A stretch of DNA of 64,000 bases, from assembly GCA_024276305.1 (NCBI GenBank), contig JAJRXK010000018.1, forward strand, positions 45,818-109,817, written 5' to 3'. The notes beneath the pieces were generated by a model. That model saw only the letters and a program-made list of their open reading frames with translations. It did no database searches and was not told the DNA's origin. The position numbers and the translations under genes were made by a program. How positions within the stretch are numbered: position 1 is the stretch's first letter; each line of letters starts with the position of its first letter. Shown here piece by piece: positions 17,752 through 35,879 of the stretch. Source of the stretch: Candidatus Krumholzibacteriota bacterium. GTDB lineage: Bacteria; Krumholzibacteriota; Krumholzibacteriia; JAJRXK01.

Positions 17752-17752
<1 letters not shown>

Positions 17753-18300
17753 TGTCACTCTCCAACTCGAGTCGCCCGCTCCGCGGATACCTCGCCGAAT
17801 TCGACGCCCCCGAAAAGGTGGTCGATGCGATCCACCGGGTCAGAGAAGAGGGCTACGAGAAGTACGACACCTTTTCTCCCTATCCCTGCGAAGAGATGGC
17901 CGATGCGATGGATGTGCACCGCTCTTGGTTACCCTTCATCGTTCTCGGAGGCGGGATCACGGGGGCCCTCACGGGATGGGCGCTGCAGTTTCTGACCTCG
18001 ACCCAGGTCTACCCCATGAACATCGGTGGCCGACCCTACAATTCCTGGCCCGCGTTCATCGTGGTGATCTTCGAGTGCACGATCCTCTTCGCCGCCTTCT
18101 CGGCGGTGCTCGGGATGTTCGCCTTGAATCGGCTCCCCCAACCGCACCATCCGCTCTTCGGGATCGAGTCGTTCAAACGGGCATCGCAGGATCGCTACTT
18201 TCTCTACGTCGAATCCACGGATCCCCGATTCGACATCCATTCGACTCGTGCGTTCATGGAGAGCCTGGACTCGAGCGAGGTGACCGCCGTTGAAGACTGA
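17752..18300 (+). CDS. actD: Alternative Complex III subunit D (DUF3341)
   Basis: RGYLAEFDAPEKVVDAIHRVREEGYEKYDTFSPYPCEEMADAM...; position after actC. Confidence 0.9.
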
Positions 18301-18943
18301 TCGATGGGCGAGGAGCCTCGTCGCTACGGTTTCGGTGCTGATCTCGATGGCCGCCTTCACCGGCTGCGCGGACATGAAGGATCAGCCGCACCACGAGCCG
18401 CTCGAGTACTCGAGCTTCTTCGCCGATGGACGTTCGTCCAGGCCCCTGGTCGAGGGAACCGTCGCGCGCGGTCATTTGCGGGCGGACGACCGGATCTATC
18501 GGGGCCTCGAAGCCGATGGCTCCTTCGTGGCCCAGAACCCGCTCGTCGTGGACGCTGCTCTGTTGTCACGTGGGCGCAACCGCTTCGAAATCTACTGCAC
18601 ACCGTGCCACGGACGAGTCGGAGACGGGCAGGGGATGGTCGTGCAACGCGGATACAAGCAACCGTCGAGCTACCACATCGATCGGCTCCGAGGCGTCGAA
18701 GATGGATACTTCTACGACGTAATCACCAATGGCTTCGGCAAGATGTCCTCTTATGCCTCCCAGGTGAAACCGCGCGACCGTTGGGCCATTGTGGCTTACA
18801 TCCGTGCCCTGCAACTGTCGCAATACGCCGACCTGCGGTCCGTGGACGCCGCGATCGGGGCCCGCCTCGAGGCTGGCGAAGTCATCGACACCCGCAGGCA
18901 TGATGCAGAGGGAGAAGAAGAGCACCATGGAACGGGCCACTAA
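18290..18943 (+). CDS. actE: Alternative Complex III subunit E, monoheme cytochrome c lipoprotein
   Basis: Lipobox FTGC; one heme motif CTPCH; TTG start overlapping actD. Confidence 0.85.
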   Translation: MKTDRWARSLVATVSVLISMAAFTGCADMKDQPHHEPLEYSSFFADGRSSRPLVEGTVARGHLRADDRIYRGLEADGSFVAQNPLVVDAALLSRGRNRFEIYCTPCHGRVGDGQGMVVQRGYKQPSSYHIDRLRGVEDGYFYDVITNGFGKMSSYASQVKPRDRWAIVAYIRALQLSQYADLRSVDAAIGARLEAGEVIDTRRHDAEGEEEHHGTGH

Positions 18944-20105
18944 TCGCTGGGCGCCTCCGGCGCAGATCGGCCAGCTTCGGAACGTCGCCTTCGCGGTGGG
19001 TGCGATTGCTGCCGTCGCGTCGGGGATCGGCGCCTTCCTCACCCCCCAGCGCTTCGTGCAGTCCTACCTCGTTGCCTATCTGTGGGTGCTGGCGGCCCCT
19101 CTGGGAGCCCTCGGGCTAATGATGCTGCATCACGTCAGTCGCGGCGCCTGGGGAGTCCTGATCCGACGCATCCTCGAAGCGGCCGCCCGAACTCTGCCCT
19201 TCATGGCGGTCCTCTTCCTACCCGTGTTGCTGCGGATGCAGGACCTCTACATCTGGAGCGATCCCGCAATCGTCTCCGAAGACGCTCTCTTGCAGGCCAA
19301 GACTCCTTGGCTCAACACGACCTTCTTCACTATCCGCGCCGGATTCTACTTCTTGGCCTGGATCGGTCTCACTACGGTATTGACGAGGATCAGTCGGTCG
19401 CAAGACCGTGCATCCGAAGGGCTCTCTGCCGCGCGGCGATTGCAATCGATCAGCGCCGGAGGCTTGGTACTCTTCGTCGTGACCGTGAGCTTCGCATCCT
19501 TCGACTGGTTGATGTCTCTCGATCCTCATTGGTACTCGAGCATCTACGGCATCTACTACATGATCGGCGCCGTTCTCACCGCACTCTGTCTCACCGTGGT
19601 GATTTCGCTGTGGCTCTCCGGACGGACCCCGATGGACGGAGCCCTGCGCCCGCTTCACTTCCATGACCTCGGCAAGCTGATGCTGGCCTTCCTCATGCTC
19701 TGGGCCTATTTCGCGGTGTCCCAGCTCATCATCATCTGGTCTGGCAACCTCCCCGAGGAGGTGCCCTGGTACATCGAGCGAACCACCGGGATGTGGAAGT
19801 GGTTCGCCCATGCCATCATTCTGGTCCATTTCGCCCTCCCCTTCGCCCTTCTGCTCAGTAGCGACCTGAAAGCCGACGCCAAGCGCCTGGTGGGAGTCGC
19901 GGGACTGGTTCTGGTGATGCGGTGGGTCGACATGTTCTGGCAGGCTGCGCCTTCCATGCACCTGCACCACCTCCACTGGCTCGATGTCACGACGGCCATT
20001 GCGCTGGGTGGGATCTGGACGGGGTTGTTCCTGACTCAGCTCCAGGGTACGGCCCTCATCCCGCGGAACGAACCCTTCCTCGAGGAGGCGTTGCAGCATG
20101 GTTGA
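18927..20105 (+). CDS. actF: Alternative Complex III subunit F (integral membrane)
   Basis: About 10 TM segments; MERATNRWAPPAQIGQLRNVAFAVGAIAAVAS...; ActF-typical SFDWLMSLDPHWYSSIYGIYYM. Start at 18927 preferred to the track start 18789. Confidence 0.88.
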   Translation: MERATNRWAPPAQIGQLRNVAFAVGAIAAVASGIGAFLTPQRFVQSYLVAYLWVLAAPLGALGLMMLHHVSRGAWGVLIRRILEAAARTLPFMAVLFLPVLLRMQDLYIWSDPAIVSEDALLQAKTPWLNTTFFTIRAGFYFLAWIGLTTVLTRISRSQDRASEGLSAARRLQSISAGGLVLFVVTVSFASFDWLMSLDPHWYSSIYGIYYMIGAVLTALCLTVVISLWLSGRTPMDGALRPLHFHDLGKLMLAFLMLWAYFAVSQLIIIWSGNLPEEVPWYIERTTGMWKWFAHAIILVHFALPFALLLSSDLKADAKRLVGVAGLVLVMRWVDMFWQAAPSMHLHHLHWLDVTTAIALGGIWTGLFLTQLQGTALIPRNEPFLEEALQHG

Positions 20106-20520
20106 CCCCAAGATCAAGACCGGCGAGCCGCATGTCGACGGCGACTTCGACCAGGAACTCAGCTATCGAGGTATCGGGATTTTCATCGCCGCGATCGGGC
20201 TGCTCACCGTCCTCACCTTCGTCTTCTCCTGGCATCTGGACGGGGGACTGAAGCGGTACCTGGCCCACGGCGATCCTGAGCCCTCCCCACTGGCGGAAGC
20301 CCGCGTTCCCCGGGTGCCCCCAAGCCCCCACCTGCAGACCCTTCCCTATGAGGACCTCGTTCAGATGCATGCGATCGAGGACCGCGTGCTCCACTCCTAC
20401 GGCATGGTCGATCCCGGCGCAGCCAAGATTCGCATTCCCATCGACGAGGCCATGTCACGTGTCGCCCGCGGCCATCTTCCCCACTGGCCCAAGCCAAGCC
20501 CGGAAGGTGGACAACTCTGA
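20098..20520 (+). CDS. Small single-TM protein of the ACIII/oxidase cluster, uncharacterised
   Basis: 140 aa, one TM (GIFIAAIGLLTVLTFVFSW), conserved-looking tail EDRVLHSYGMVDPGAAKIRIPIDEAMSRVA; overlaps neighbours by 8 bp and 1 bp. Confidence 0.75.
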   Translation: MVDPKIKTGEPHVDGDFDQELSYRGIGIFIAAIGLLTVLTFVFSWHLDGGLKRYLAHGDPEPSPLAEARVPRVPPSPHLQTLPYEDLVQMHAIEDRVLHSYGMVDPGAAKIRIPIDEAMSRVARGHLPHWPKPSPEGGQL

Positions 20521-21380
20521 TGGATTTCTCTCTGGGTCATCGGTCGATCTCACGGTTCTTGGCCGCGTCGCTGCTGGTCTCCGCTCTCGCTTCGGCAGCG
20601 ACCGCCCAGCAGCCCCCGATTGCCAACATGCCCGGCCCGCTCCGCGAAGTCGGCTTCGAACAGAAGTTGGGCGCCACCGTCCCCAGCGGACTCTCCTTCG
20701 TCGATTCCGAAGGACGGGCGGTCTTGCTCGACGACTACTTCGACGACAAGCCGGTGGTCCTGGCTCTCGTCTACTACGAGTGTCCGATGCTGTGCAGCAT
20801 GGTTCTGAACGGACTCGTGAGCAGCCTCGACATTCTGACCTTCGACGCCTCCAAGGACTTCGAAGTGGTCGTGGTCAGTTTCGACCCCGACGAGACGCCG
20901 GAGCTGGCCCGGGTGAAGCGGCAGGAGATCGTGGATCGCTATGATCGTCCCGGCACCGAAGCCGGGTTTCACTTCCTCACCGGCAATCCCCCCGAAATCG
21001 CCACCCTGACGAAGGCGGTTGGATTCAGCTACAAATACGACGAGGACAAGGATCAATTCGCACACGCAGCGGGGATCACCATCCTCACTCCCGGCCGCAC
21101 CGTGTCCCGCTATCTCTTCGGCATCGAGTACGCACCCAAGGACTTGCGCTTGGCATTGGTCGAATCCGCAGAGGGATCGGTAGGCGGAATGGTCGACCAA
21201 CTCCTGCTCTATTGCTACGCCTATGACCCCGCGACCGGAAGCTATGGTGCCGCCACCATGAACATTCTGCGGATCGCAGGGTTGTTCACGGTCGGTTCCA
21301 TTCTCGGTTTTATTCTGCTCTCGAGGCGCCGGGACCGGCGGCGCGAGCGCGCCCACAAAGAGGATTTCGCTCAGTCATGA
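20520..21380 (+). CDS. SCO1/SenC family copper chaperone
   Basis: YYECPMLCSMVLNGL copper motif, VVVSFDPDETPELA, HAAGITIL; signal peptide and C-terminal TM. Confidence 0.9.
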   Translation: MDFSLGHRSISRFLAASLLVSALASAATAQQPPIANMPGPLREVGFEQKLGATVPSGLSFVDSEGRAVLLDDYFDDKPVVLALVYYECPMLCSMVLNGLVSSLDILTFDASKDFEVVVVSFDPDETPELARVKRQEIVDRYDRPGTEAGFHFLTGNPPEIATLTKAVGFSYKYDEDKDQFAHAAGITILTPGRTVSRYLFGIEYAPKDLRLALVESAEGSVGGMVDQLLLYCYAYDPATGSYGAATMNILRIAGLFTVGSILGFILLSRRRDRRRERAHKEDFAQS

Positions 21381-22351
21381 AGCTACCTTTCTTCCCCGAA
21401 CAGGCATCGGCCATGGCCCAGCAGGTCGACGCGATCTCCCTCTTCGCGGTCAGCATTTCCTTTGTTGCCGGCGTGGGAATTGTCGCGGTGCTGACCTGGC
21501 TCGGTCTGCGCTACCGGCGGAGTCACCGTGACGAAGTCGGAAGCGCGGGGCACAGCAGCAATCTCCTCGAGATCATCTGGTCCGTGATTCCGGGGATCAT
21601 CTTCATCGGACTCTTCTTCTGGGGCGCCAAGATCTACTTCGAGAACTACCGCATCCCCCCCGACGCCGTTCGATACTATGTCGTCGGCAAACAGTGGATG
21701 TGGAAGTACCAGCATCCTTCGGGGAACCGGGAAATCAACGATTTCCACGTGCCGGTGGACACTCCCATCGAGCTCGTGGTCACCTCTGAGGACGTGATTC
21801 ACTCCTTCTTCGTTCCCGCTCTGCGAGTGAAGCGCGATGCCGTCCCCGGTCGATACTCCACAACCTGGTTCGAAGCCAATCGCACCGGAACCTTCGATAT
21901 CTTCTGCGCTGAGTACTGCGGGGCCGAACACTCGCTGATGATCGGCAAGCTCCATGTGATGGAGCAGCACGACTACGAAGAGTGGCTCGAAGGCAACGAG
22001 CCCGCTCAATCATTGGCCATGAGTGGTGCAGCACTCTTCGAGCAGAACTCCTGCGGTACCTGCCACCGAAGCGACAGCTCGGCCCGGGCTCCCATTCTCG
22101 ACGGAATCTACGGCCGGGAGATCGCTCTCCTCGGCGGCGGCGTCATCGTCGCGGACGACGCCTACATTCGCGAGTCGATCATGAATCCTCAGGCCAAGGT
22201 CGTGGCGGGGTACCAACCCATCATGCCAACCTTCCAGGGTCAGCTCCGAGAGGAAGAGATCCTCGAGTTGATCAGCTACATCCAGTCTCTCGGAAAGAAG
22301 GCCGAATCCCGCACCGAAGCGGCGGCGGCGGTCTCGGATGAAGGTGAATGA
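21377..22351 (+). CDS. coxB: Cytochrome c oxidase subunit II with fused cytochrome c (caa3-type)
   Basis: CuA motif [14 protein letters not shown]-terminal heme motif CGTCH. Confidence 0.93.
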
Positions 22352-24005
22352 GATGAGCAGCGCGGCGTTGCACACGCAGTCGGACACCAACTATCTCAAC
22401 GACGGATTCGGGATTCGTTCGTGGCTCCTCACGACCGACCACAAACGGATCGCCATTCTCTATCTCATCACCAATACGCTCTTCTTCTTCATGGGCAGCG
22501 TGATGGCAGCTCTGATCCGCATCGAGCTTCTGACTCCCGAAGGCGATCTCGTGCAACCAGACATGTACAATCGGCTGTTCACGATGCACGGCGTGATCAT
22601 GGTCTTCCTCTTTCTGATTCCGACCATCCCCGCCGTCTTCGGAAACTTCCTCATTCCGATCATGATCGGAGCCAAGGACCTGGCCTTTCCCCGATTGAAT
22701 CTGGGAAGCTGGTACGTCTTCAACGTCGGTGCGGCTCTTATCTTTTATTCAATCTTCAAGGGAGGTTTGGACACCGGGTGGACATTCTACGTCCCCTTCA
22801 GTTCGACCTACAGCGCCACGAACGTCATGACGGCGGCAGTGGGGATCTTCATTGCGGGCTTCGCCTCTATCATGACCGGGCTGAACTTCCTGGTCACCAT
22901 CCACCGGATGCGGGCCCCAGGAATGACCTGGTTCCGAATGCCGCTCTTCGTGTGGGCCCACTACGCGACGAGCATCATCATCTTGCTCGGAACTCCAGTG
23001 GTCGCGGTCACGATCCTGATGGTCGGCGCAGAACGCGTGCTGCACTTGGGCATCTTCGATCCCGCCTACGGCGGCGACCCGATCCTCTTCCAGCATCTCT
23101 TCTGGTTCTACTCACATCCTGCAGTCTACATCATGGTGCTGCCAGCCATGGGGATCCAGAGCGAACTGGTGGCTGGAATGTGCCGCAACCGGGTCTTCGG
23201 CTACCGAGCCGTTTGCTACGCCAGCGTGGCCATTGCGGTATTGGGATTCCTCGTGTGGGGACACCACATGTACACCACTGGGCAATCTCCTTACGCGGGA
23301 ACCATCTTCTCTTTCCTGACCATGCTGGTGGCGGTGCCTTCGGCGGTCAAGACCTTCAACTGGACCGCGACTCTCTATCGGGGGTCGATCTCATGGGAGA
23401 CCCCGATGATCTACGCCGCGGCGTTCATCGGACTCTTCATCATTGGTGGAACCACCGGAGTCATGCTGGGTACCCTGGGCATCGATGTGCACGTACACGA
23501 CACCTACTTCGTCGTAGCGCACTTCCACTACGTCATGGTTGGCGTCACCATGATGGGCTTCATGGGCGGCCTTCACTACTGGTGGCCAAAGATCACCGGG
23601 CGCATGTACGACGCATTCTGGTCCAAGATCTCGGCCTTGCTCATCTTCGTTGGATTCAACCTGACGTTCTTCCCCCAGTTCCTGTTGGGCTACATGGGAA
23701 TGCCTCGACGCTACCACGCCTATCCGGAGCAGTGGCAGACCTTGAACGTGCTGTCCACCGCGGGCGCGTCGGTATTGGGCATCGGCTTCGTGCTTCCAGC
23801 AATCTACTTCCTGTGGTCCCTCAAGAAAGGGAAGAAAGCCGAGGCCAACCCCTGGGGGGCGGTGGGACTGGAGTGGGAGATCTCTTCTCCTCCCATCTCG
23901 CACAACTTCGAGGAGACTCCGGTGGTCATCAATGAGGCCTACGACTATCAGGCCGGACATGTGGGCGTGATCCCCAGCACCGAGAAGGAGGCCGACCTTG
24001 TCTGA
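22338..24005 (+). CDS. coxA: Cytochrome c oxidase subunit I (A2-type)
   Basis: Heme-copper oxidase signatures ([52 protein letters not shown]). Confidence 0.95.
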
Positions 24006-24675
24006 TTCGACTGGGGCGACCACTCGTCTCGCCCACTGGTACCGCAGTTACGAAGAGCAGACCGAATCCGTCACTCTCGGAATCTGGCTCTTCTTGGTCA
24101 CCGAAGTGATGTTCTTCGGGGGCCTGTTCATGGCCTATACCCTCTACCGTTCGCTGAATCCCGAAGCATTTGCGGCCGCGAGTCACCACCTGAGCATATT
24201 CCTGGGAACCGTGAATACGGCCGTACTGATCGGATCGAGCTTCACCGTCGTGATGGCAGTGTGGTCGGCCGAACGTGGGAAACAGAAGAGCCTCGTCTTC
24301 TGGCTCGGAGCGACCATCGTCCTCGGCCTGGCGTTCTTGGGAATCAAAGCCAACGAGTATGCGCACAAGTGGCATGAAGGCCTCGTGCCCGGACCAGATT
24401 TCGTATTCCACGACACTCGTGAAGGAGTCCACGCCGCCGCCGATCCCAATCGCGCTCGGATGTTCTTCCACCTCTACTTCGGAATGACCGGATTGCATGC
24501 CCTGCACATGATCATCGGAATCGGCGTATTCCTGACGCTCATGGTCAATGCGATCCGAGGCAAGTACACCCGCCAGTGGCACGACCCCATTCCGGTCGCG
24601 GGTCTCTACTGGCATTTTGTCGACCTGGTATGGATCTTCCTCTTTCCCCTGTTGTACCTCATCGGTCGGCACTAG
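23998..24675 (+). CDS. coxC: Cytochrome c oxidase subunit III
   Basis: [55 protein letters not shown] start overlapping coxA. Confidence 0.93.
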
Positions 24676-24681
24676 GAGACC

Positions 24682-25005
24682 ATGATGTCCACGAAGCAAC
24701 CCATCGGACTCCCAACCTACTTCGCGGTATTCGCGGCACTCCTCGTCTTGACCGGACTTACGGTGTGGGTGGCGTTCCAAGACTTCGGGGTCTACAACAA
24801 CGTCATCGCTCTGGGGATTGCAGTCATCAAGTCAACCCTCGTCGTTCTGTTCTTCATGCATGTCATCCACAGCACACCATTGACCAAGTTGATCCTGGTG
24901 ACTGCGGTGTTCTTCTTCTTGATCCTGGTAGCCTTCGTCTACGCGGATGTCTGGACTAGGGACATGCTGAACCTGCCCGGTCGTCCCCCGCTCATCGGTG
25001 GCTGA
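24682..25005 (+). CDS. coxD: Cytochrome c oxidase subunit IV-type small membrane protein
   Basis: 107 aa, about 3 TM, TLVVLFFMHVIHSTPLTKLILV; follows coxC. Confidence 0.85.
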   Translation: MMSTKQPIGLPTYFAVFAALLVLTGLTVWVAFQDFGVYNNVIALGIAVIKSTLVVLFFMHVIHSTPLTKLILVTAVFFFLILVAFVYADVWTRDMLNLPGRPPLIGG

Positions 25006-25014
25006 TCCCCTGGC

Positions 25015-26961
25015 TCAGTCGAGTTCCACCCGACCGCGGTACTGATCAAGACACTCAGGATTGGCGAGAGCATCGCGATTGTCGAGGGCCTCGCCATGAA
25101 TCGTCCGCTGCACGGCGATTTCGCTGATCTTCCCGCTCACCGTCCGCGGAATGTCACTGACGCACAGGATCTTCCGCGGCACATGGTGCGGACTGGCGTG
25201 ATCACGGATCGCCTGCCGGAGCTCGGTCTCGAGGGCTGCGTCGAGGTCGACCCCCTCTCGCAGCACCACGAATAGGATCACCCGTACATCTCCTTCGAAG
25301 CGCTGCCCCACACACACCGCCTCGACCACGGAGTCATGGCCTTCCACCGCACGGTAGATCTCAGCCGTACCAATGCGCACTCCACCGGGGTTCAGGGTGG
25401 TGTCGCTGCGCCCGTGAAAGATCATCCCCCCGCTCGGTGTGAGTTCGACCCAATCCCCGTGGTGCCAAACCCCGGGGAATCGGGCGAAGTAGGCCTGATG
25501 GTAGCGCTCTCGATTCGGGTCCCGCCAGAATCCGACGGGCATCGAGGGAAAGGCTCGGGTGCACACGAGTTCGCCGGGCTGACCGGACGGTGCCTCCGCT
25601 CCGTCGGGTGATCGAACCTCGACCCGCATCCCCAAACCCCGAGTCTGGAGTTCACCTCGCCGAACCGGCAATACTGGATTGCCCAATGCGAAACAACTGA
25701 CGATGTCCGTACCGCCGGAGATGCTCGAGAGTTGGAGGTCGGCCTTCACCTCTCGATAGACGTAGTCGAAGCTCTCGGGAGACAGCGGGCTGCCAGTGCT
25801 GAGAAGGGTCTCCAGTCGCGGAAAGTCCAGATCTCTCGCCGGACGAAGGCCCCGCTTCTCGGCCAGGCTCAGGAACTTCGCGCTTACCCCGAGGCAGGCA
25901 AGGCCCTCCTCGGCCGCAATCCTGAACAGCCGATCGGGCTGGGGATGGAAGGGGGATCCATCGATGAGGACCACTCTCGCTCCGAGCCCGAGCGCCGACA
26001 CCAACCAATTCCACATCATCCATCCGCAGGTCGTGTAGTAGGCGACGTGGTCGCCGGGACCGAGGTCCGTGTGGAGCCCCAACTCCTTGAAGTGCTGCAC
26101 CAAGGTGCCGCCCGCTCCGTGCACGATTCCCTTGGGAAGTCCGGTGGTGCCCGAGGAGAAGAGGATGTACACGGGATGATCGAAGGGCAAGGACTCGAAG
26201 GTCGGCTCACCGGACTCCGTCTCCAGAACTGCAAGCGCCCAATCTTCCTCGTCGGCATCGAGCTGCGACCCCGAGGTGCCGCCTCCTCGGACCACCAACA
26301 GTCGTTCGGCCGAGTCCATGGCCCGGAAGAGCGAACGAGCCCGCCCCAACACCGGACGTTCCTTGCCCGCGTAACGATAGGAGTCGACCGACACCAGCAC
26401 CTTGGGTTCGATCTGACCCAAACGGTCCAGGGCCGCCTTCACTCCGAAGTCGGGGCTGCACGAGGACCAGATCGCGCCGATCGACGTGGTCGCCAGCATG
26501 GCCACCACGGTCTCGATACAATTCGGCATATAGGCAGCGACCCGATCTCCAGCTTCCACCCCCACACTGCGTAGCCAGGCCTGGCACTGCCCTACCCGCT
26601 CTCGCAGCTCATCACGGCTGATGGACCGTGGCATTCGACCCTCTGTGCGTTCCACCAGAGCGATTTCGGAACCTCGATGCCGCAACAAGTTCTCGGCGAA
26701 GTTGATGCGTGCCCCGCTGAACCACTTCGTGTCGAACATCCGATCGAGATCCTCGACGATCCGATCACCACGCTTCCCTTGGATCTCGAAGAAGTCCCAG
26801 ATTTCGGCCCAAAAATCCGCCGGTTCCTCGATGCTCCAAGCGTAGAGATCTTCGGAGGTGGGACCGATCTGGGGATGTCGCTCCCGACAGCCCTTCGCGA
26901 ATCGGTCCATGCGCGTCGAGGCGATGCGCTCGGCGCTCGGCTCCCACAACACTTCCCCCAC
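25015..26961 (-). CDS. Acetoacetate--CoA ligase (acetoacetyl-CoA synthetase)
   Basis: ANL-superfamily ligase (ILFSSGTTGLPKGIVHGAGG, YTTCGWMMWNWL) with AACS N-terminus. GTG at 26961 preferred because the longer ORF start (27057) overlaps fahA. Confidence 0.9.
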   Translation of the reverse strand: MGEVLWEPSAERIASTRMDRFAKGCRERHPQIGPTSEDLYAWSIEEPADFWAEIWDFFEIQGKRGDRIVEDLDRMFDTKWFSGARINFAENLLRHRGSEIALVERTEGRMPRSISRDELRERVGQCQAWLRSVGVEAGDRVAAYMPNCIETVVAMLATTSIGAIWSSCSPDFGVKAALDRLGQIEPKVLVSVDSYRYAGKERPVLGRARSLFRAMDSAERLLVVRGGGTSGSQLDADEEDWALAVLETESGEPTFESLPFDHPVYILFSSGTTGLPKGIVHGAGGTLVQHFKELGLHTDLGPGDHVAYYTTCGWMMWNWLVSALGLGARVVLIDGSPFHPQPDRLFRIAAEEGLACLGVSAKFLSLAEKRGLRPARDLDFPRLETLLSTGSPLSPESFDYVYREVKADLQLSSISGGTDIVSCFALGNPVLPVRRGELQTRGLGMRVEVRSPDGAEAPSGQPGELVCTRAFPSMPVGFWRDPNRERYHQAYFARFPGVWHHGDWVELTPSGGMIFHGRSDTTLNPGGVRIGTAEIYRAVEGHDSVVEAVCVGQRFEGDVRVILFVVLREGVDLDAALETELRQAIRDHASPHHVPRKILCVSDIPRTVSGKISEIAVQRTIHGEALDNRDALANPECLDQYRGRVELD

Positions 26962-26975
26962 CGACGATCGCTCTC

Positions 26976-28304
26976 TCAACTGGGCCGCTCCCGCGCTGGC
27001 AGGACCCGGCCTCTGCACTCCCCGAATCCGATGGGAACCGCACCCTCGGCTTCGCACCGCCCCCGGATCACGATCTCGTCACCGTCCTGCAGGAACTTCC
27101 GCTCTTCTCCGTGCGGAAGGACGATGGCCTCACTTCCTCGCCAGGTGATCTCGAGGAGACAACCGCGATTGACTTTCGCGGGGCCGGACACCGTCCCGCT
27201 GGCCATCAGATCACCCGGACGCAGGTTGCATCCATTGCTCGCGTGGTGAGCGAGCATCTGCGCGATGGTCCAGTACATCTCCCGAAAATTGCCCTGGCTC
27301 AGGCGATGATCGGCCAAGCCCTTCTCCCGCATGAGCGGCGTGCTCAAGTAGACTTCCAACTGAAGGTCGATGCCTCCACGTCGGCGATTCCCTTCGCTGT
27401 CGAGATGAGCGAGCGGTTGGGGATCGTCTGCCTCGCGCGCGAAGCTCGGGCAGCGGAATGGCTCGAGAGCGTCGAGAGTCACCACCCAGGGCGAAATGGT
27501 CGTCGCAAAGCTCTTGGCCAAGAACGGGCCCAGAGGCTGGTATTCCCACTTTTGCAGGTCCCGGGCCGACCAATCGTTCACCAGACACAGGCCGAAGACG
27601 CGGTCCTCCGCCGTCGCCAAATCGACGACCTCCCCCAAGCAATTCGAGTCGGCCACGAAGAACCCCACTTCGAGTTCGTAGTCGAGCAATCGAGAAGGGA
27701 GGTATTGCGGTGCGGCGTCCTCGCCCGTCACCGTCTGGCCCCAGGGACGGTGGAGTTCGGTTCCACTCACGACGACCGAAGATGCGCGGCCGTGATACCC
27801 CACCGGAATCCATTTGTAGTTGGGCAAGAGGGGGTTGTCCGGCCGGAACATGGAACCCACATTGGTCGCGTGATGAATCGAAGCGTAGAAATCCGTGTAG
27901 TCCCCGATGTCGGCGGGCAACAGCATCTCGACCTCGGATTGTCGGTGCAGAATCCGGTCCGCGTATTTCACCGCACTGCTGTCCGAGCCCAATACTTCGC
28001 TCAGCTGATGACGCAGCTCGCGGGCCACCGTTCGACCGAGAGACATCAGTCCATTGAGCCGTCCGGTTCCCGCCGACTGCACCGCCACTCGGGCGTCGCC
28101 GGTCAGGAGCCCCAATTCCTCGCACTTCTGCAAATCGAGGATTCGGTCTCCGATGGCCACCCCGATTCGCGGTCCTTCGTCTGCGGCGCAACGATAGCTG
28201 CCGAAGGGAAGATTCTGGAGAGGGAAGTCACTGCGAGGGTCGTTGGCGCTGTCGACCCAACTCTTCCGTTCGGGATCATGGGTGATGTCGAGTCGGTGGT
28301 TCAT
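26976..28304 (-). CDS. fahA: Fumarylacetoacetase
   Basis: 442 aa; DFPLQNLPFGSY, IGDYTDFYASIHHATNVG, GRASSVVVSGTELHRPWGQ, NDWSARDLQKWEYQPLGPFLAKSFATTISPWVV. Confidence 0.95.
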   Translation of the reverse strand: MNHRLDITHDPERKSWVDSANDPRSDFPLQNLPFGSYRCAADEGPRIGVAIGDRILDLQKCEELGLLTGDARVAVQSAGTGRLNGLMSLGRTVARELRHQLSEVLGSDSSAVKYADRILHRQSEVEMLLPADIGDYTDFYASIHHATNVGSMFRPDNPLLPNYKWIPVGYHGRASSVVVSGTELHRPWGQTVTGEDAAPQYLPSRLLDYELEVGFFVADSNCLGEVVDLATAEDRVFGLCLVNDWSARDLQKWEYQPLGPFLAKSFATTISPWVVTLDALEPFRCPSFAREADDPQPLAHLDSEGNRRRGGIDLQLEVYLSTPLMREKGLADHRLSQGNFREMYWTIAQMLAHHASNGCNLRPGDLMASGTVSGPAKVNRGCLLEITWRGSEAIVLPHGEERKFLQDGDEIVIRGRCEAEGAVPIGFGECRGRVLPARERPS

Positions 28305-29167
28305 CGTATCTCCAATGCTCGTAAGTCATCGAGGGGTTCGACAAAGGAACAAGAGCCGAAAGAAAGGGCGATCCGTCTACGATAGTTCATCAAGTCGCTC
28401 ACCCCGACCCGGTGGTGACGCCAGCCGGCTTGGTCACCATGAAGGTGAAAGGCCTTGGGATCCATCTCGCTCACCGTGCTCTCCATCTCCTCCGGACTCA
28501 AACCGACTCGAGCGTAGAGGAGTCCGGCCAAGAACAGGTTGACGAAGCCATGCATCATCGCGCGCGGCGCATTGGTCTCGTAGGTCAGGGGATATGCCCC
28601 CCGGAAGGGATGGTGCAAGCCCGCAGTCGCCTTGAAGGCCACCCCTCCGTCCAGGCATGCGCGGAGAAAGGAGCAAACCGTGGCCACCGGGGGAATCAGG
28701 CCGGCCTCCACTCCCCCGGTGCGGATCTTCGCCCGAAGACCAGCTCGGCCGAGGGCCTTCACCCACGGGCGCGGGTCCTCCCGCCAATCGAACTCGATGA
28801 AGGTCGGAATTGCCTCGGTGAGTTCCGCCAACCATGGCAAGTCCTCGACCGCCTGGGCCCTGGTCTCGATGCTCACGATCCGCACGCGGGAAGGATCGCG
28901 GGCCAGCGATCGCGTCAGCTCCGAATCGAGAGCAGGGTCGCGGGTCCAGAGCAGGCTCAGAGGCCATGCCTCTCCGCGGATCCATCCCCCTGCCAGAAGC
29001 TCTTCGACCCGGGAGACCGGAATGACGAAGGATCCCAGCGCCGACCGATCCGGGCCCCGCAGATAAGCACCGTAGTTGGTGGCCGCCTCCTCCAAGGGGA
29101 GGGCCGCAGGGGGGAAGAGCCCCGCGTAGTCGACGATTCCGTCGAGAAGTGCCTCGATCGCGTTCAC
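28301..29167 (-). CDS. Uncharacterised protein translationally coupled to fumarylacetoacetase
   Basis: 288 aa, MNAIEALLDGIVDYAGLFPPAALPLEEAATNYGAYL...RAKIRTGG...VAFKATAGLHHPFRG...; stop overlaps the fahA start (ATGA). Confidence 0.75.
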   Translation of the reverse strand: MNAIEALLDGIVDYAGLFPPAALPLEEAATNYGAYLRGPDRSALGSFVIPVSRVEELLAGGWIRGEAWPLSLLWTRDPALDSELTRSLARDPSRVRIVSIETRAQAVEDLPWLAELTEAIPTFIEFDWREDPRPWVKALGRAGLRAKIRTGGVEAGLIPPVATVCSFLRACLDGGVAFKATAGLHHPFRGAYPLTYETNAPRAMMHGFVNLFLAGLLYARVGLSPEEMESTVSEMDPKAFHLHGDQAGWRHHRVGVSDLMNYRRRIALSFGSCSFVEPLDDLRALEIR

Positions 29168-29387
29168 ATTGCTCCTGGGTAGGGCGAAAGAAGGAGTTTA
29201 GCGCCTCTTGGCGGCTCTTCCCACCCCAGATCGCCGAAGCTCGAATCGAGGTGAGGACGGCCTTCGGCCGTGGGAAATTCTCCCCAGATGTGCTAATTTC
29301 TCTCCGATCCCCGCGCCGGCTTCCCCGGTCCGGATCGCTTGTCCGCTACATTCCATGATCTTCCCGCGATCCCCGAGAGGTTCCTCC

Positions 29388-30479
29388 GTGAGCGAGAATC
29401 CGCTGAGACTCAAGCGCCTGCATCACGCCGAGTTCTGGGTGGGAAACGCCAAACAGGCGGCATTCTACTACACCCGCGCCTTCGGGTTCTCCCGCTTCGC
29501 CTACCAGGGCCTCGAGACCGGCAGTCGAGATCGGGCCAGCTATGCCCTCCAACAGGGGAAAGTCCGCTTCGTGCTCAGCTCGGCGCTCGAGCCCGACGCC
29601 GAGATCAATGCCTTCCTCACCCAGCACGGCGATGGGGTCAAGGACCTGGCCTTCGAGGTCGAGAACGCAGACTTTGCCTACGAAGAAGCTCTCCGCCGCG
29701 GCGCCAAGGGAGCCATCGCGCCACGGACTCTGTCGGACGCCAACGGGAAAGTACGACACTCTGCCGTTTGCACCTACGGAGACACCATTCATTCCTTCTA
29801 CGATTTGCAGGATTATCGTGGACCCTTTCTCCCGGGTTATGTCGAAAGCGAAGAGGCAGGAGAGGGAGTGGGACTTCTGCTCATCGACCACTGCGTGGGG
29901 AACGTCGACTGGGGTGAGATGGAGGCCACGGCCCGGTGGTACGAGGAAGTGATGGGTTTCTCTCGCTACATCACCTTCGACGACAAGGACATCTCGACCG
30001 AGTACACCGCGCTGCAGAGCATCGTGATGAGCAATGATCAAGCATCGATTCGCTTTCCGATCAACGAGCCCGCAAAGGGGCTGAAGAAGAGCCAGATCGC
30101 AGAGTACATTGAGGCCTATCACGGACAAGGTGTCCAACACGTTGCCCTTCTCACCAAGGATATCATTTCTACCGTGGCCCGATTGCGCGCGAACGGAGTG
30201 GACTTTCTCGAGGTCCCCGACAACTACTACGACACGGTTTGGGACCGCGTCGGGGACCACGTGAAAGAAGACCGCGACGAGATTCGTCGACTGCGCATCT
30301 TGGTGGACAGCGATGAGCACGGCTATCTCCTCCAACTCTTCACTCAGCCAGTCCAAGATCGCCCAACTCTCTTCTTCGAAATCATCCAACGGGTCGGTGC
30401 ACGCGGTTTCGGAAAGGGCAACTTCAAAGCCCTCTTCGAATCCATCGAGCGCGAGCAGGGACTCCGCGGAAACCTCTAG
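29388..30479 (+). CDS. hppD: 4-hydroxyphenylpyruvate dioxygenase
   Basis: Two VOC-fold halves ([53 protein letters not shown]), [40 protein letters not shown] at 29388 preferred. Confidence 0.95.
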
Positions 30480-30486
30480 GCGGAAC

Positions 30487-31641
30487 ATGCCCATCTATCA
30501 CCACCTCGGCAACCTCCCACGCAAACGGCACCAAGTTCTCGTCCGTCCCGACGGCGGGATGTACTTCGAAGAACTCATGGGAAACAAGGGTTTCGTCGGA
30601 CCATCGACCCTGATGTACCACATGCGCTACCCCACCGAGGTTCGCGATCAACGCAGCGCCGGCATCTGTTCCTTGGAGGAAGCCACCCGCGATGACCTGC
30701 GACACTGTCATTTCCGGACGGCGTCGCTGGACTGTGGTCCGTCAGTCGTGCGCGACCGCGTGGGACTGCTCTTCAATGATGATGTTGCCCTCTTCGTTGC
30801 TCGGCCGGATGCAAGTGAGGAACCGCTGTTTCGCGACGGTGGGTCGGACGAGCTGATCTTCGTGGCCAAGGGCGAGGGCACCCTCCACAGCATGCTCGGG
30901 GACCTCCCCTTCCGAAGCGGAGACTACATCGTCATTCCGCGGGGAATCGTTCACCAATGGGAATTCGCCAACAACGATAATCATCTCCTCATCCTCGAGA
31001 GTCGAGGTGCGGTACGTACGCCGAAACACTATCGCAACGAGTTCGGGCAGCTACTCGAGGGCGCTCCTTTCAACGAACGCGATGTGCGTCCTCCCTCCAA
31101 CTTGGTCACTCACGACGACGAAGGTGATTTCGCCGTGCTCACCAAGCATGGGCAGCGCTACACCGAGCAAGTCCTGAGTCATCATCCCTTCGATGTCGTG
31201 GGCTGGGATGGTTTCTACTACCCATGGGCTCTCAACATCGAGGACTTCGAGCCCAAAGTCGCCGCCTACCACCTTCCTCCTCCTGTGCATCAGACCTTCG
31301 AGTCGGAGGGTTTCGTCATCTGTTCCTTCTGCCCGCGTCCCTTCGACTATGGAGAAGGTGCCGTTCCGGCCCCCTACTTCCACTCGAATGTGTGGACCGA
31401 CGAAGTGATTTTCTATGCCTGCGAAGAGTTCATGAGTCGAAAGGGGATCGGCTTCGCATCGATCACCCTCCATCCCGACGGGCTTCCTCACGGTCCTCAG
31501 CCCGGTCGCATGGAAGATTCGATCGGCGTGAAGTGGACCGACGAATTGGCAGTGATGCTCGACACCTTCGCTCCGCTGAAGATCGCCAAGTCGGCGTTGT
31601 CGATCGAAGACGAGGCCTATTACCGGAGCTGGCTCGGCTGA
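30487..31641 (+). CDS. hmgA: Homogentisate 1,2-dioxygenase
   Basis: HmgA-like cupin (HHPFDVVGWDGFYYPWALNIEDFEPKVAAYHLPPPVHQTFESEGFVICSFCPRPFDYGEGAVPAPYFHSNVWTDEV). Start MPIYHHLGNL at 30487. Confidence 0.93.
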   Translation: MPIYHHLGNLPRKRHQVLVRPDGGMYFEELMGNKGFVGPSTLMYHMRYPTEVRDQRSAGICSLEEATRDDLRHCHFRTASLDCGPSVVRDRVGLLFNDDVALFVARPDASEEPLFRDGGSDELIFVAKGEGTLHSMLGDLPFRSGDYIVIPRGIVHQWEFANNDNHLLILESRGAVRTPKHYRNEFGQLLEGAPFNERDVRPPSNLVTHDDEGDFAVLTKHGQRYTEQVLSHHPFDVVGWDGFYYPWALNIEDFEPKVAAYHLPPPVHQTFESEGFVICSFCPRPFDYGEGAVPAPYFHSNVWTDEVIFYACEEFMSRKGIGFASITLHPDGLPHGPQPGRMEDSIGVKWTDELAVMLDTFAPLKIAKSALSIEDEAYYRSWLG

Positions 31642-33926: not shown

Positions 33927-34705
33927 ACGACCACCCCGAAAAGCCGGATGCCTTCGAGAAATCCGAGTATCGTCGCCTCTTCGCGTGGAGTGATCGTCTC
34001 CAGAGAGAGTGGCCTCTCCTGGAGAGAATCCTGTCCACCGGCCCCCATCGCAGACTTCTCGATCTGGGGTGTGGAAGTGGTGAACACAGCGCATTCCTGC
34101 AGGAAAAAGGCTTCTCCGTCACTGGAGTCGACGCCTCACCGAAGCAGATCGAGAGTGCCCGCAGCCTGCAATCACCCACCGGGCCGGAATTCGTCCTCTC
34201 GACCATCGGAGATCTCGGGGGGCAGGTCGACGGCACCTTCGGGGCTGCACTCTGCGTGGGCAACGTCCTTCCCTACCTCGATGCCGACGAGCTGGATCGT
34301 TCCTTCGCCACCGTGGCCTCCTTGGTCGATCCCGGCGCGCCCTGGCTGTTGCAGATCGTCAACTATCCCGGCCTGCGAGAGCGAGGCGTCCGGACTCTGC
34401 CCGTGAACGTCCGGCCCGGGGACTCCGAGGATGAGGAACTGGTTCTCCTGCGACTGATGCGGTTTTCGGAGGAAGGCAAGGTTCTCTTCAGCCCTTCGAC
34501 CCTTCGATGGCGTCCCGGCGAGGATCCTCCAGTGACCGTTCAGTGGACCAAGACGATCTTGCTCGAGGCCTGGAGCGCGGATGATCTCGTCGCAGTTGCC
34601 GCACGCCACAGCTTCGAGGAAGTGGAGCGCTTCGGAAGCGTAGAAGGTGAAGCTTTCGATCCGATCCACTCCCATGACATTATCTTGCACCTGCGACGGA
34701 AGTAG
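33923..34705 (+). CDS. Class I SAM-dependent methyltransferase
   Basis: RRLLDLGCGSGEHSAFLQEKGFSVTGVDASPKQIESAR; GTG at 33923 overlaps the upstream stop. Confidence 0.85.
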   Translation: MNDHPEKPDAFEKSEYRRLFAWSDRLQREWPLLERILSTGPHRRLLDLGCGSGEHSAFLQEKGFSVTGVDASPKQIESARSLQSPTGPEFVLSTIGDLGGQVDGTFGAALCVGNVLPYLDADELDRSFATVASLVDPGAPWLLQIVNYPGLRERGVRTLPVNVRPGDSEDEELVLLRLMRFSEEGKVLFSPSTLRWRPGEDPPVTVQWTKTILLEAWSADDLVAVAARHSFEEVERFGSVEGEAFDPIHSHDIILHLRRK

Positions 34706-34709
34706 AACC

Positions 34710-35879
34710 ATGCCGCGCTTTCCCGAGGTCTCGGCGAGGAGTGCCCGCATCTCGGGGTCGACCTTCGAGAAATTCCTACCCCGACTGCGGCAGCACCGAG
34801 ACGGATTCTACAAGCTCCACATCGGTGACAGCGACCGCGGTCCGAATTATGTGCTGCCCTATCGAGAGGATTTCGCAGCGCAGAACCCCTACGCCTTCCA
34901 ATACGCAAACACCTGGGGAATCACCCGGCTTCGACGAGCCATCGCCGAGAAACTGCGGGACGAGAACCATCTCTCGGTGGAGGCCGACGAGGTCCTGGTC
35001 ACCGGAGGAGCCACGAATGCGCTGAGCGCCTGCGTTCACGCCATCGCCGATCCTCACGAAGAGATCTTGGTCCTGACTCCCTCCTGGCCCTTCTTCCGAG
35101 GCATGGTCCAGCTCGCGGGAGCCCACGTGCGGGAGCTCCCGTTCTACTGCGAGCTGCGACAGGGAAGCATTCCGAGGATCGAGACCTACCTCGAGTCGGC
35201 CATCACCAGCCGCTGCGTGGGGATCTATCTCAACTCGCCGAACAACCCCAGCGGGGTCACTCTCGACGAGGCCGAACTCACCGCCGTGCTCCGGGTGGCC
35301 GAAGCTCACCGGCTGTGGGTGGTCTCCGACGAGGCCTACGACCAGATGGCCTTCGACGGACGAAACACCCTCAGCCCCGCGGCTCTTGGAGTGGCCGCCG
35401 GACAGGTTCTCACCACCTTCACCTTCTCCAAGACCTATCGATTCGCGGGACTCCGGCTGGGCTGGGCGACCGGACCGAGAACCCTCCTGGAGGCGATGAA
35501 CAAGATCATGGTCCACATGATCTACGGGCCCACGGTGCCCGGGCAGTACATGATGGTCGAGGCCCTGCGGACCCGTCGAGAGTGGGTGCCCTCCGTCCAG
35601 GCCGAGTACCAGCGACGGCGAGACGACTTCCTCGACGCCTTGGCCCTCGATCTTCACGCCCCTGAAGGAACCTACTTCGTCTTCTTCGACGCGCAGCAAT
35701 TCCTCGGCAAAGAGCCCATCGACGCCCTGGTGGCACGATGCATCGATGCCGGGGTCGCCGTGACCCCAGGAGAAGATTTCGGAGACGATTACCGAAACTG
35801 GATTCGGGTGTGCTTCGCGGCCGAAGATCCCGAACGAAGCCGGCAGGCTGCCGTCCGCCTACGCGAGATCCTGGCCTGA
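34710..35879 (+). CDS. Pyridoxal phosphate-dependent class I/II aminotransferase
   Basis: NTWGITRLRRAIAEKL, LNSPNNPSGVTLDEAEL, SDEAYDQMAF, TFSKTYRFAGLRLGW. Confidence 0.88.
   Translation: MPRFPEVSARSARISGSTFEKFLPRLRQHRDGFYKLHIGDSDRGPNYVLPYREDFAAQNPYAFQYANTWGITRLRRAIAEKLRDENHLSVEADEVLVTGGATNALSACVHAIADPHEEILVLTPSWPFFRGMVQLAGAHVRELPFYCELRQGSIPRIETYLESAITSRCVGIYLNSPNNPSGVTLDEAELTAVLRVAEAHRLWVVSDEAYDQMAFDGRNTLSPAALGVAAGQVLTTFTFSKTYRFAGLRLGWATGPRTLLEAMNKIMVHMIYGPTVPGQYMMVEALRTRREWVPSVQAEYQRRRDDFLDALALDLHAPEGTYFVFFDAQQFLGKEPIDALVARCIDAGVAVTPGEDFGDDYRNWIRVCFAAEDPERSRQAAVRLREILA

Follow-up and report, generated by a model that had tools for sequence, protein, structure and literature searches.

In MaiA, the zeta-class glutathione transferase of the homogentisate pathway, the thiol of glutathione adds to the cis double bond of the substrate. 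In glutathione-less bacteria, a glutathione-dependent cis-trans isomerase is replaced by the mycothiol-dependent maleylpyruvate isomerase (MDMPI), a DinB-like protein. A glutathione-independent maleylacetoacetate isomerase activity is also said to have been described in Gram-positive bacteria by Hagedorn and Chapman (in the Journal of Bacteriology, in 1985), and we know of no gene that has been assigned to it. In Bacillus anthracis, no maleylacetoacetate isomerase gene was found and the fate of maleylacetoacetate is unresolved (PMC4457819). In the full-text literature, no paper was found that assigns a gene to the isomerase step in maiA-less bacteria, most subscription journals being outside the coverage. 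Another protein of tyrosine degradation, HmgX of Aspergillus fumigatus, belongs to the HppD step and is encoded in a fungal cluster that also contains maiA (PMC3203155). Here, a gene of a bacterial tyrosine-degradation locus, designated X, is analyzed, and it is considered likely that its product is a glutathione-independent maleylacetoacetate isomerase, an activity inferred from genomics in the absence of biochemical data.

The window (the whole stretch of DNA analyzed, 64,000 nucleotides, from a member of Krumholzibacteriota, referred to below as the home phylum) contains the genes listed in Table 1. X is followed on the minus strand by fahA and then the acetoacetyl-CoA synthetase gene, while hppD and then hmgA are read divergently from X on the plus strand. 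The first-pass annotation had described X as a 288-aa reading frame without giving its strand, with a 4-bp ATGA overlap with fahA and the motifs VDYAGLFPPA, RAKIRTGG and FKATAGLHHP; the frame lies where it was placed, on the minus strand, and both the overlap and all three motifs are present. Its start codon is GTG, with AGGAG 4 nt upstream. The neighbors named HPPD, FAH and acetoacetyl-CoA synthetase are matched by the corresponding NCBIfam equivalogs, and FahA also matches solved fumarylacetoacetate hydrolase chains over its whole length. The listed GTG of the acetoacetyl-CoA synthetase is probably too early, since the TIGR01217 model matches from residue 35. The naming of HmgA holds through homology of this 383-aa protein to the Priestia gene that carries the annotation homogentisate 1,2-dioxygenase, but the score with TIGR01015 is weak (just 54 bits, for a cut-off of 511) and the protein is of a short divergent type, so that automatic annotation may miss such short HmgAs. 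The HmgA partners of X are of this short type or, in Acidobacteriota, of a longer type weakly similar to it. The aminotransferase that had been noted nearby is indeed a PLP aminotransferase, its substrate being uncertain. Bordering the tyrosine genes, a respiratory cluster (cytochrome c oxidase subunits, an SCO-like protein and cytochrome c) was recognized by eye.

Table 1. Features of the X locus in the window, followed by loci in other genomes mentioned in the text
Feature	Location	Strand	Support or remark
X, 288-aa uncharacterized predicted TIM-barrel protein	28301-29167	minus	ORF read from sequence
Shine-Dalgarno-like AGGAG before the GTG of X	29172-29176	minus	direct sequence reading
ATGA, overlap of X stop codon (TGA) and fahA start codon (ATG)	28301-28304	minus	
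fahA, fumarylacetoacetase, canonical full-length type	26976-28304	minus	TIGR01266, 552 bits (cut-off 375)
acetoacetyl-CoA synthetase	25015-27057	minus	TIGR01217, 827 bits
hppD, 4-hydroxyphenylpyruvate dioxygenase	29400-30479 (start approximate)	plus	TIGR01263, 453 bits
hmgA, homogentisate 1,2-dioxygenase, short divergent type	30490-31641 (start approximate)	plus	
PLP aminotransferase	34647-35879		substrate uncertain
Respiratory cluster	17752-25005		by eye
X without FAH, home phylum	L118 / G074 C1, around 4103330		single-contig genome
Divergent X without FAH	L165 / G322 C291		
FAH genomes without detectable X or maiA	L155-L164 (G167, G171, G224, G233, G269, G277, G284, G292, G324, G364); L117 (G079)		
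Gene pair before X, two Phycisphaerales	L095 4460-6960; L110 4644-6989		~375-450 aa each
Maleylpyruvate-isomerase N-terminal domain gene, two Streptomyces plasmids	L033 6346-7002; L170 1003-1659		

X is confirmed as a real gene and not a chance reading frame by a family that is conserved and coupled to FAH across dozens of lineages. The single protein gave no match in NCBIfam and Pfam up to an E-value of 10 and nothing significant among PDB sequences, and alignments of 26 and 80 members gave no significant relative in Pfam, NCBIfam or PDB sequences. More specifically, no FAH-domain profile of Pfam or NCBIfam and no MDMPI_N (DinB-like) domain of Pfam matches X, and no GST family match occurs among 80 family members. 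As judged by these sequence comparisons, X lies outside every known isomerase family and belongs to an unrelated, undescribed one. Its relatives are encoded in at least 555 stretches of genome_contigs and the family covers some ten phyla; the best 80 of these stretches come, judging by record titles, from Gemmatimonadota, Acidobacteriota, Planctomycetota, Chloroflexota, Cyanobacteriota, Verrucomicrobiota, Ignavibacteria and others. Further members are found on plasmids of Bacillota and Actinomycetota, where RefSeq names them 'hypothetical protein'. A single copy is present in the home genome, which is 3.5 Mb in size and 97.9% complete.

The AlphaFold2 model of X, computed from 80 sequences (pLDDT 96.6, pTM 0.93), bears out the alpha/beta barrel guessed earlier from the motifs. 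It is a TIM barrel in which eight strands alternate with helices, and additional hairpins are inserted after strand 7 and before strand 8. Searched with Foldseek, the model retrieves only generic barrels, headed by deoxyribose-phosphate aldolase (DERA, 1ub3; E 5.5e-4, probability 1.00), and a viral structure library yields only weak generic barrels. In 128 of 128 distinct sequences of the family, D13, A15, P20, E125, K147, R149, G151, G152, P159, K179, T181-L184, G207, N210, G271 and C273 are invariant, C273 being the sole invariant cysteine. Invariance at residues ~13-21 and 178-186 is partly the result of selection, because the patterns used for fetching the sequences covered these regions; E125, K147, R149, N210 and C273 are outside the patterns and their invariance was not selected for. 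The invariant residues are inferred to lie where the strands end on their C-terminal side, or slightly beyond, and would thus form the catalytic mouth of the predicted barrel, an assignment drawn from secondary structure and not from coordinates.

The genomic neighborhood was surveyed at 110 X loci, of which 105 could be evaluated. FAH is encoded downstream of X in 92 of these 105, in 87 cases within 100 bp. The median gap is 0 bp, 46 loci having abutting or overlapping genes, and the overlap is exactly 4 bp in 35 of the 92. In the home phylum, FAH adjoins X in 29 of 30 loci, often with HmgA preceding. Among 14 genomes without FAH at the X locus, 11 have a FAH over the cut-off elsewhere; in Nostoc, for example, X is near hmgA and hppD, with FAH elsewhere in the genome. 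The conservation of the neighborhood, to which the first-pass annotation had pointed as a check, is therefore established: X tracks fahA in some ten phyla, often in the order hmgA-X-fahA. In Priestia the order is hppD-X-fahA-hisC-hmgA. Two Streptomyces (Alt3 and NBC_01213), Pseudonocardia and two Rhodococcus plasmids have hmgA-X-fahA with no hppD nearby, although in Rhodococcus the annotation of the first gene reads cupin-domain protein and includes terms for tyrosine metabolism. Such loci place the X step at or after the cleavage of the homogentisate ring, and agree with X acting once the ring has been cleaved and before FAH.

Two kinds of unassigned neighbors were also observed. In two Phycisphaerales, two similar-looking uncharacterized genes precede X in the same orientation, on the side away from FAH. 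In two Streptomyces plasmids with X-fahA, a gene with a maleylpyruvate-isomerase N-terminal domain is located 1-4 kb from X.

At the level of whole genomes, X and FAH are almost always present or absent together. In the 80 genomes of the home phylum, 30 have both (in one of them FAH is truncated where the contig ends), 48 have neither, one has X only (G074) and one has FAH only (G079); in the Acidobacteriota sample (the group of G096, 247 genomes, assigned to this phylum from the record titles of members), the corresponding numbers are 46, 190, 1 and 10. The association has Fisher p-values of 1e-19 and 7e-39, respectively, which take no account of relatedness and serve only as a rough indication. 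The X-only genome of the home phylum contains a well conserved X and no FAH was found in it. Another X without FAH (G322) is divergent, with H185, H186 and S274 changed and K147, K179 and C273 kept, and possibly has another function.

The distribution of maiA (TIGR01262) complements that of X. The absence of a GST-type maiA, noted earlier for the locus alone, was extended by a search throughout the home genome, in which none was found. Over the curated cut-off, maiA is absent from all 80 home-phylum genomes and present in 1 of 247 genomes of the Acidobacteriota sample, one without X, and in 1 of 50 X-bearing genomes of other groups. The latter is a Steroidobacteraceae MAG (L077, JAHCAM010000048.1). 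Its X is closest to Gemmatimonadaceae (59% identity) and no FAH is near its maiA, so the contig with X and FAH is probably mis-binned; true coexistence of X and maiA, for which this is the only case, was rejected. Among the plasmid FAH records listed, those of Proteobacteria have maiA beside fahA, whereas those of Actinomycetota, Bacillota and Cyanobacteriota have X. Glutathione synthetase is not over the cut-off in any home-phylum genome, and the home genome has no match whatever; two X-bearing relatives (G041 and G042) have a strong match below the cut-off. Cyanobacterial members of the X family coexist with many GSTs, so the absence of glutathione explains X only in part.

Neither X nor maiA is detectable in eleven genomes with a canonical FAH, ten from Acidobacteriota and one from the home phylum. 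A repeat search of the X-less Acidobacteriota FAH genomes with a more closely related X as query, together with a reading of the genes around FAH, again revealed no X. Neither protein is thus strictly required wherever FAH occurs, and these organisms may rely on a spontaneous reaction, on FAH alone or on a third enzyme. In several of the eleven, FAH adjoins hppD and a large gene resembling RND transporters.

These data bear on other roles that X could have. It might act on maleylacetoacetate otherwise than by isomerization, as a direct hydrolase or as a keto-enol tautomerase that readies the substrate of FAH. In Bacillus, a hydrolase that converts maleylacetoacetate into maleate and acetoacetate has been reported (Crawford 1976, as cited in PMC4457819), and different chemistry on a beta-diketone would be compatible with the invariant Lys, Glu, Arg and Cys. 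Such a role is nevertheless held to be unlikely: a hydrolase would make FAH unnecessary, whereas X and canonical FAH hardly ever occur apart, and a tautomerase would leave the missing maiA unexplained. Little weight is likewise given to the possibility that X handles the product of FAH or a side product (acetoacetate, or a toxic by-product, for instance succinylacetone), with isomerization being spontaneous or performed by FAH. The tighter link of X to FAH than to HmgA agrees with this, as do the eleven genomes lacking both X and maiA and the acetoacetyl-CoA synthetase or CoA transferase genes that often share clusters with X. Those same clusters, however, already provide acetoacetate with a dedicated activating enzyme, and X holds beside fahA the place that maiA has in Proteobacteria and is complementary to it in distribution. 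A non-catalytic role for X, as a partner of HmgA, HPPD or FAH, is very improbable. It would be analogous to the role proposed for Aspergillus HmgX with respect to HppD, HmgX being an uncharacterized cluster protein required for HppD activity (PMC3203155), but X has an enzyme-like fold with invariant polar residues at the strand ends and is found in clusters without hppD.

Maleylacetoacetate isomerization therefore remains the preferred function. The earlier reading of X as the missing isomerization step is supported, isomerase activity still being an inference: of the outcomes that the first-pass annotation had listed as refuting it, a maiA elsewhere in the genome and neighborhoods not following fahA both failed to appear. 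X very probably replaces MaiA in bacteria without MaiA, again with the reaction inferred. In the scheme proposed, X would take the cis ring-cleavage product of HmgA and convert it into fumarylacetoacetate, the substrate that FahA, translationally coupled to X, would then split. The substrate of X would bind at the C-terminal mouth of the barrel, a carboxylate being held by R149 and neighboring residues, while polarization of the C4 ketone, possibly through an iminium, would fall to K147 and/or K179. From its position where the eighth strand ends, C273 could then attack the cis double bond with its thiol; rotation about the single bond so formed, followed by elimination, would yield the trans isomer. 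C273 would in this way be the counterpart in X of the glutathione thiol in MaiA. This cysteine and lysine chemistry is a hypothesis, less certain than the functional assignment and not backed by distance data. More tentative still, and held with somewhat less than even confidence, is the general notion of a widespread, unnamed TIM-barrel family that performs cofactor-free cis-trans isomerization with a built-in cysteine and activation of the ketone by lysine, and that evolved independently of MaiA.

If the assignment is true, X would fill a recognized hole in the breakdown of tyrosine, phenylalanine and homogentisate across much of the bacterial tree, where genomes are annotated with HmgA and FAH but with no enzyme linking the two. 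It would also name a family that is without a Pfam or NCBIfam model, and would provide an isomerase that needs no low-molecular-weight thiol.

Compared with known systems, X resembles HmgX in being an uncharacterized protein of a tyrosine-degradation cluster, and HmgX was rejected as an analogue on the ground that it works at another step. MDMPI belongs to a separate family, to which neither Pfam nor NCBIfam relates X, and the fold of X is a predicted barrel. DERA (DeoC) is the top structural match to the predicted barrel of X, and X has two invariant lysines on neighboring strands; in contrast, X has no aldolase gene context and the TM-score is just 0.42 by query (0.54 otherwise), with many other barrels close behind. 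Comparison of X with DeoC profiles by hhalign gave probabilities of 4% and 1.5%, with a score that beat all but 1 of 150 column shuffles, a weak signal at best. K147 and K179 fell on K167 (the Schiff-base lysine) and K201 of DERA in one run and in another register under a different column rule; sequence homology between X and DERA is accordingly not claimed, given these low probabilities and the dependence of the lysine register on settings. With MaiA, X would share the reaction, the place in the homogentisate pathway and a gene beside fahA. The two proteins differ in that they have no sequence relation and that X is a predicted TIM barrel whereas MaiA has the GST fold; the thioredoxin-like N-terminal fold with its glutathione site is missing from the X model and no glutathione is expected to be needed. 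As to the activity reportedly found in Gram-positive bacteria in 1985, the link is one of inference: it would equal the activity proposed for X, which is present in Priestia megaterium and Rhodococcus.
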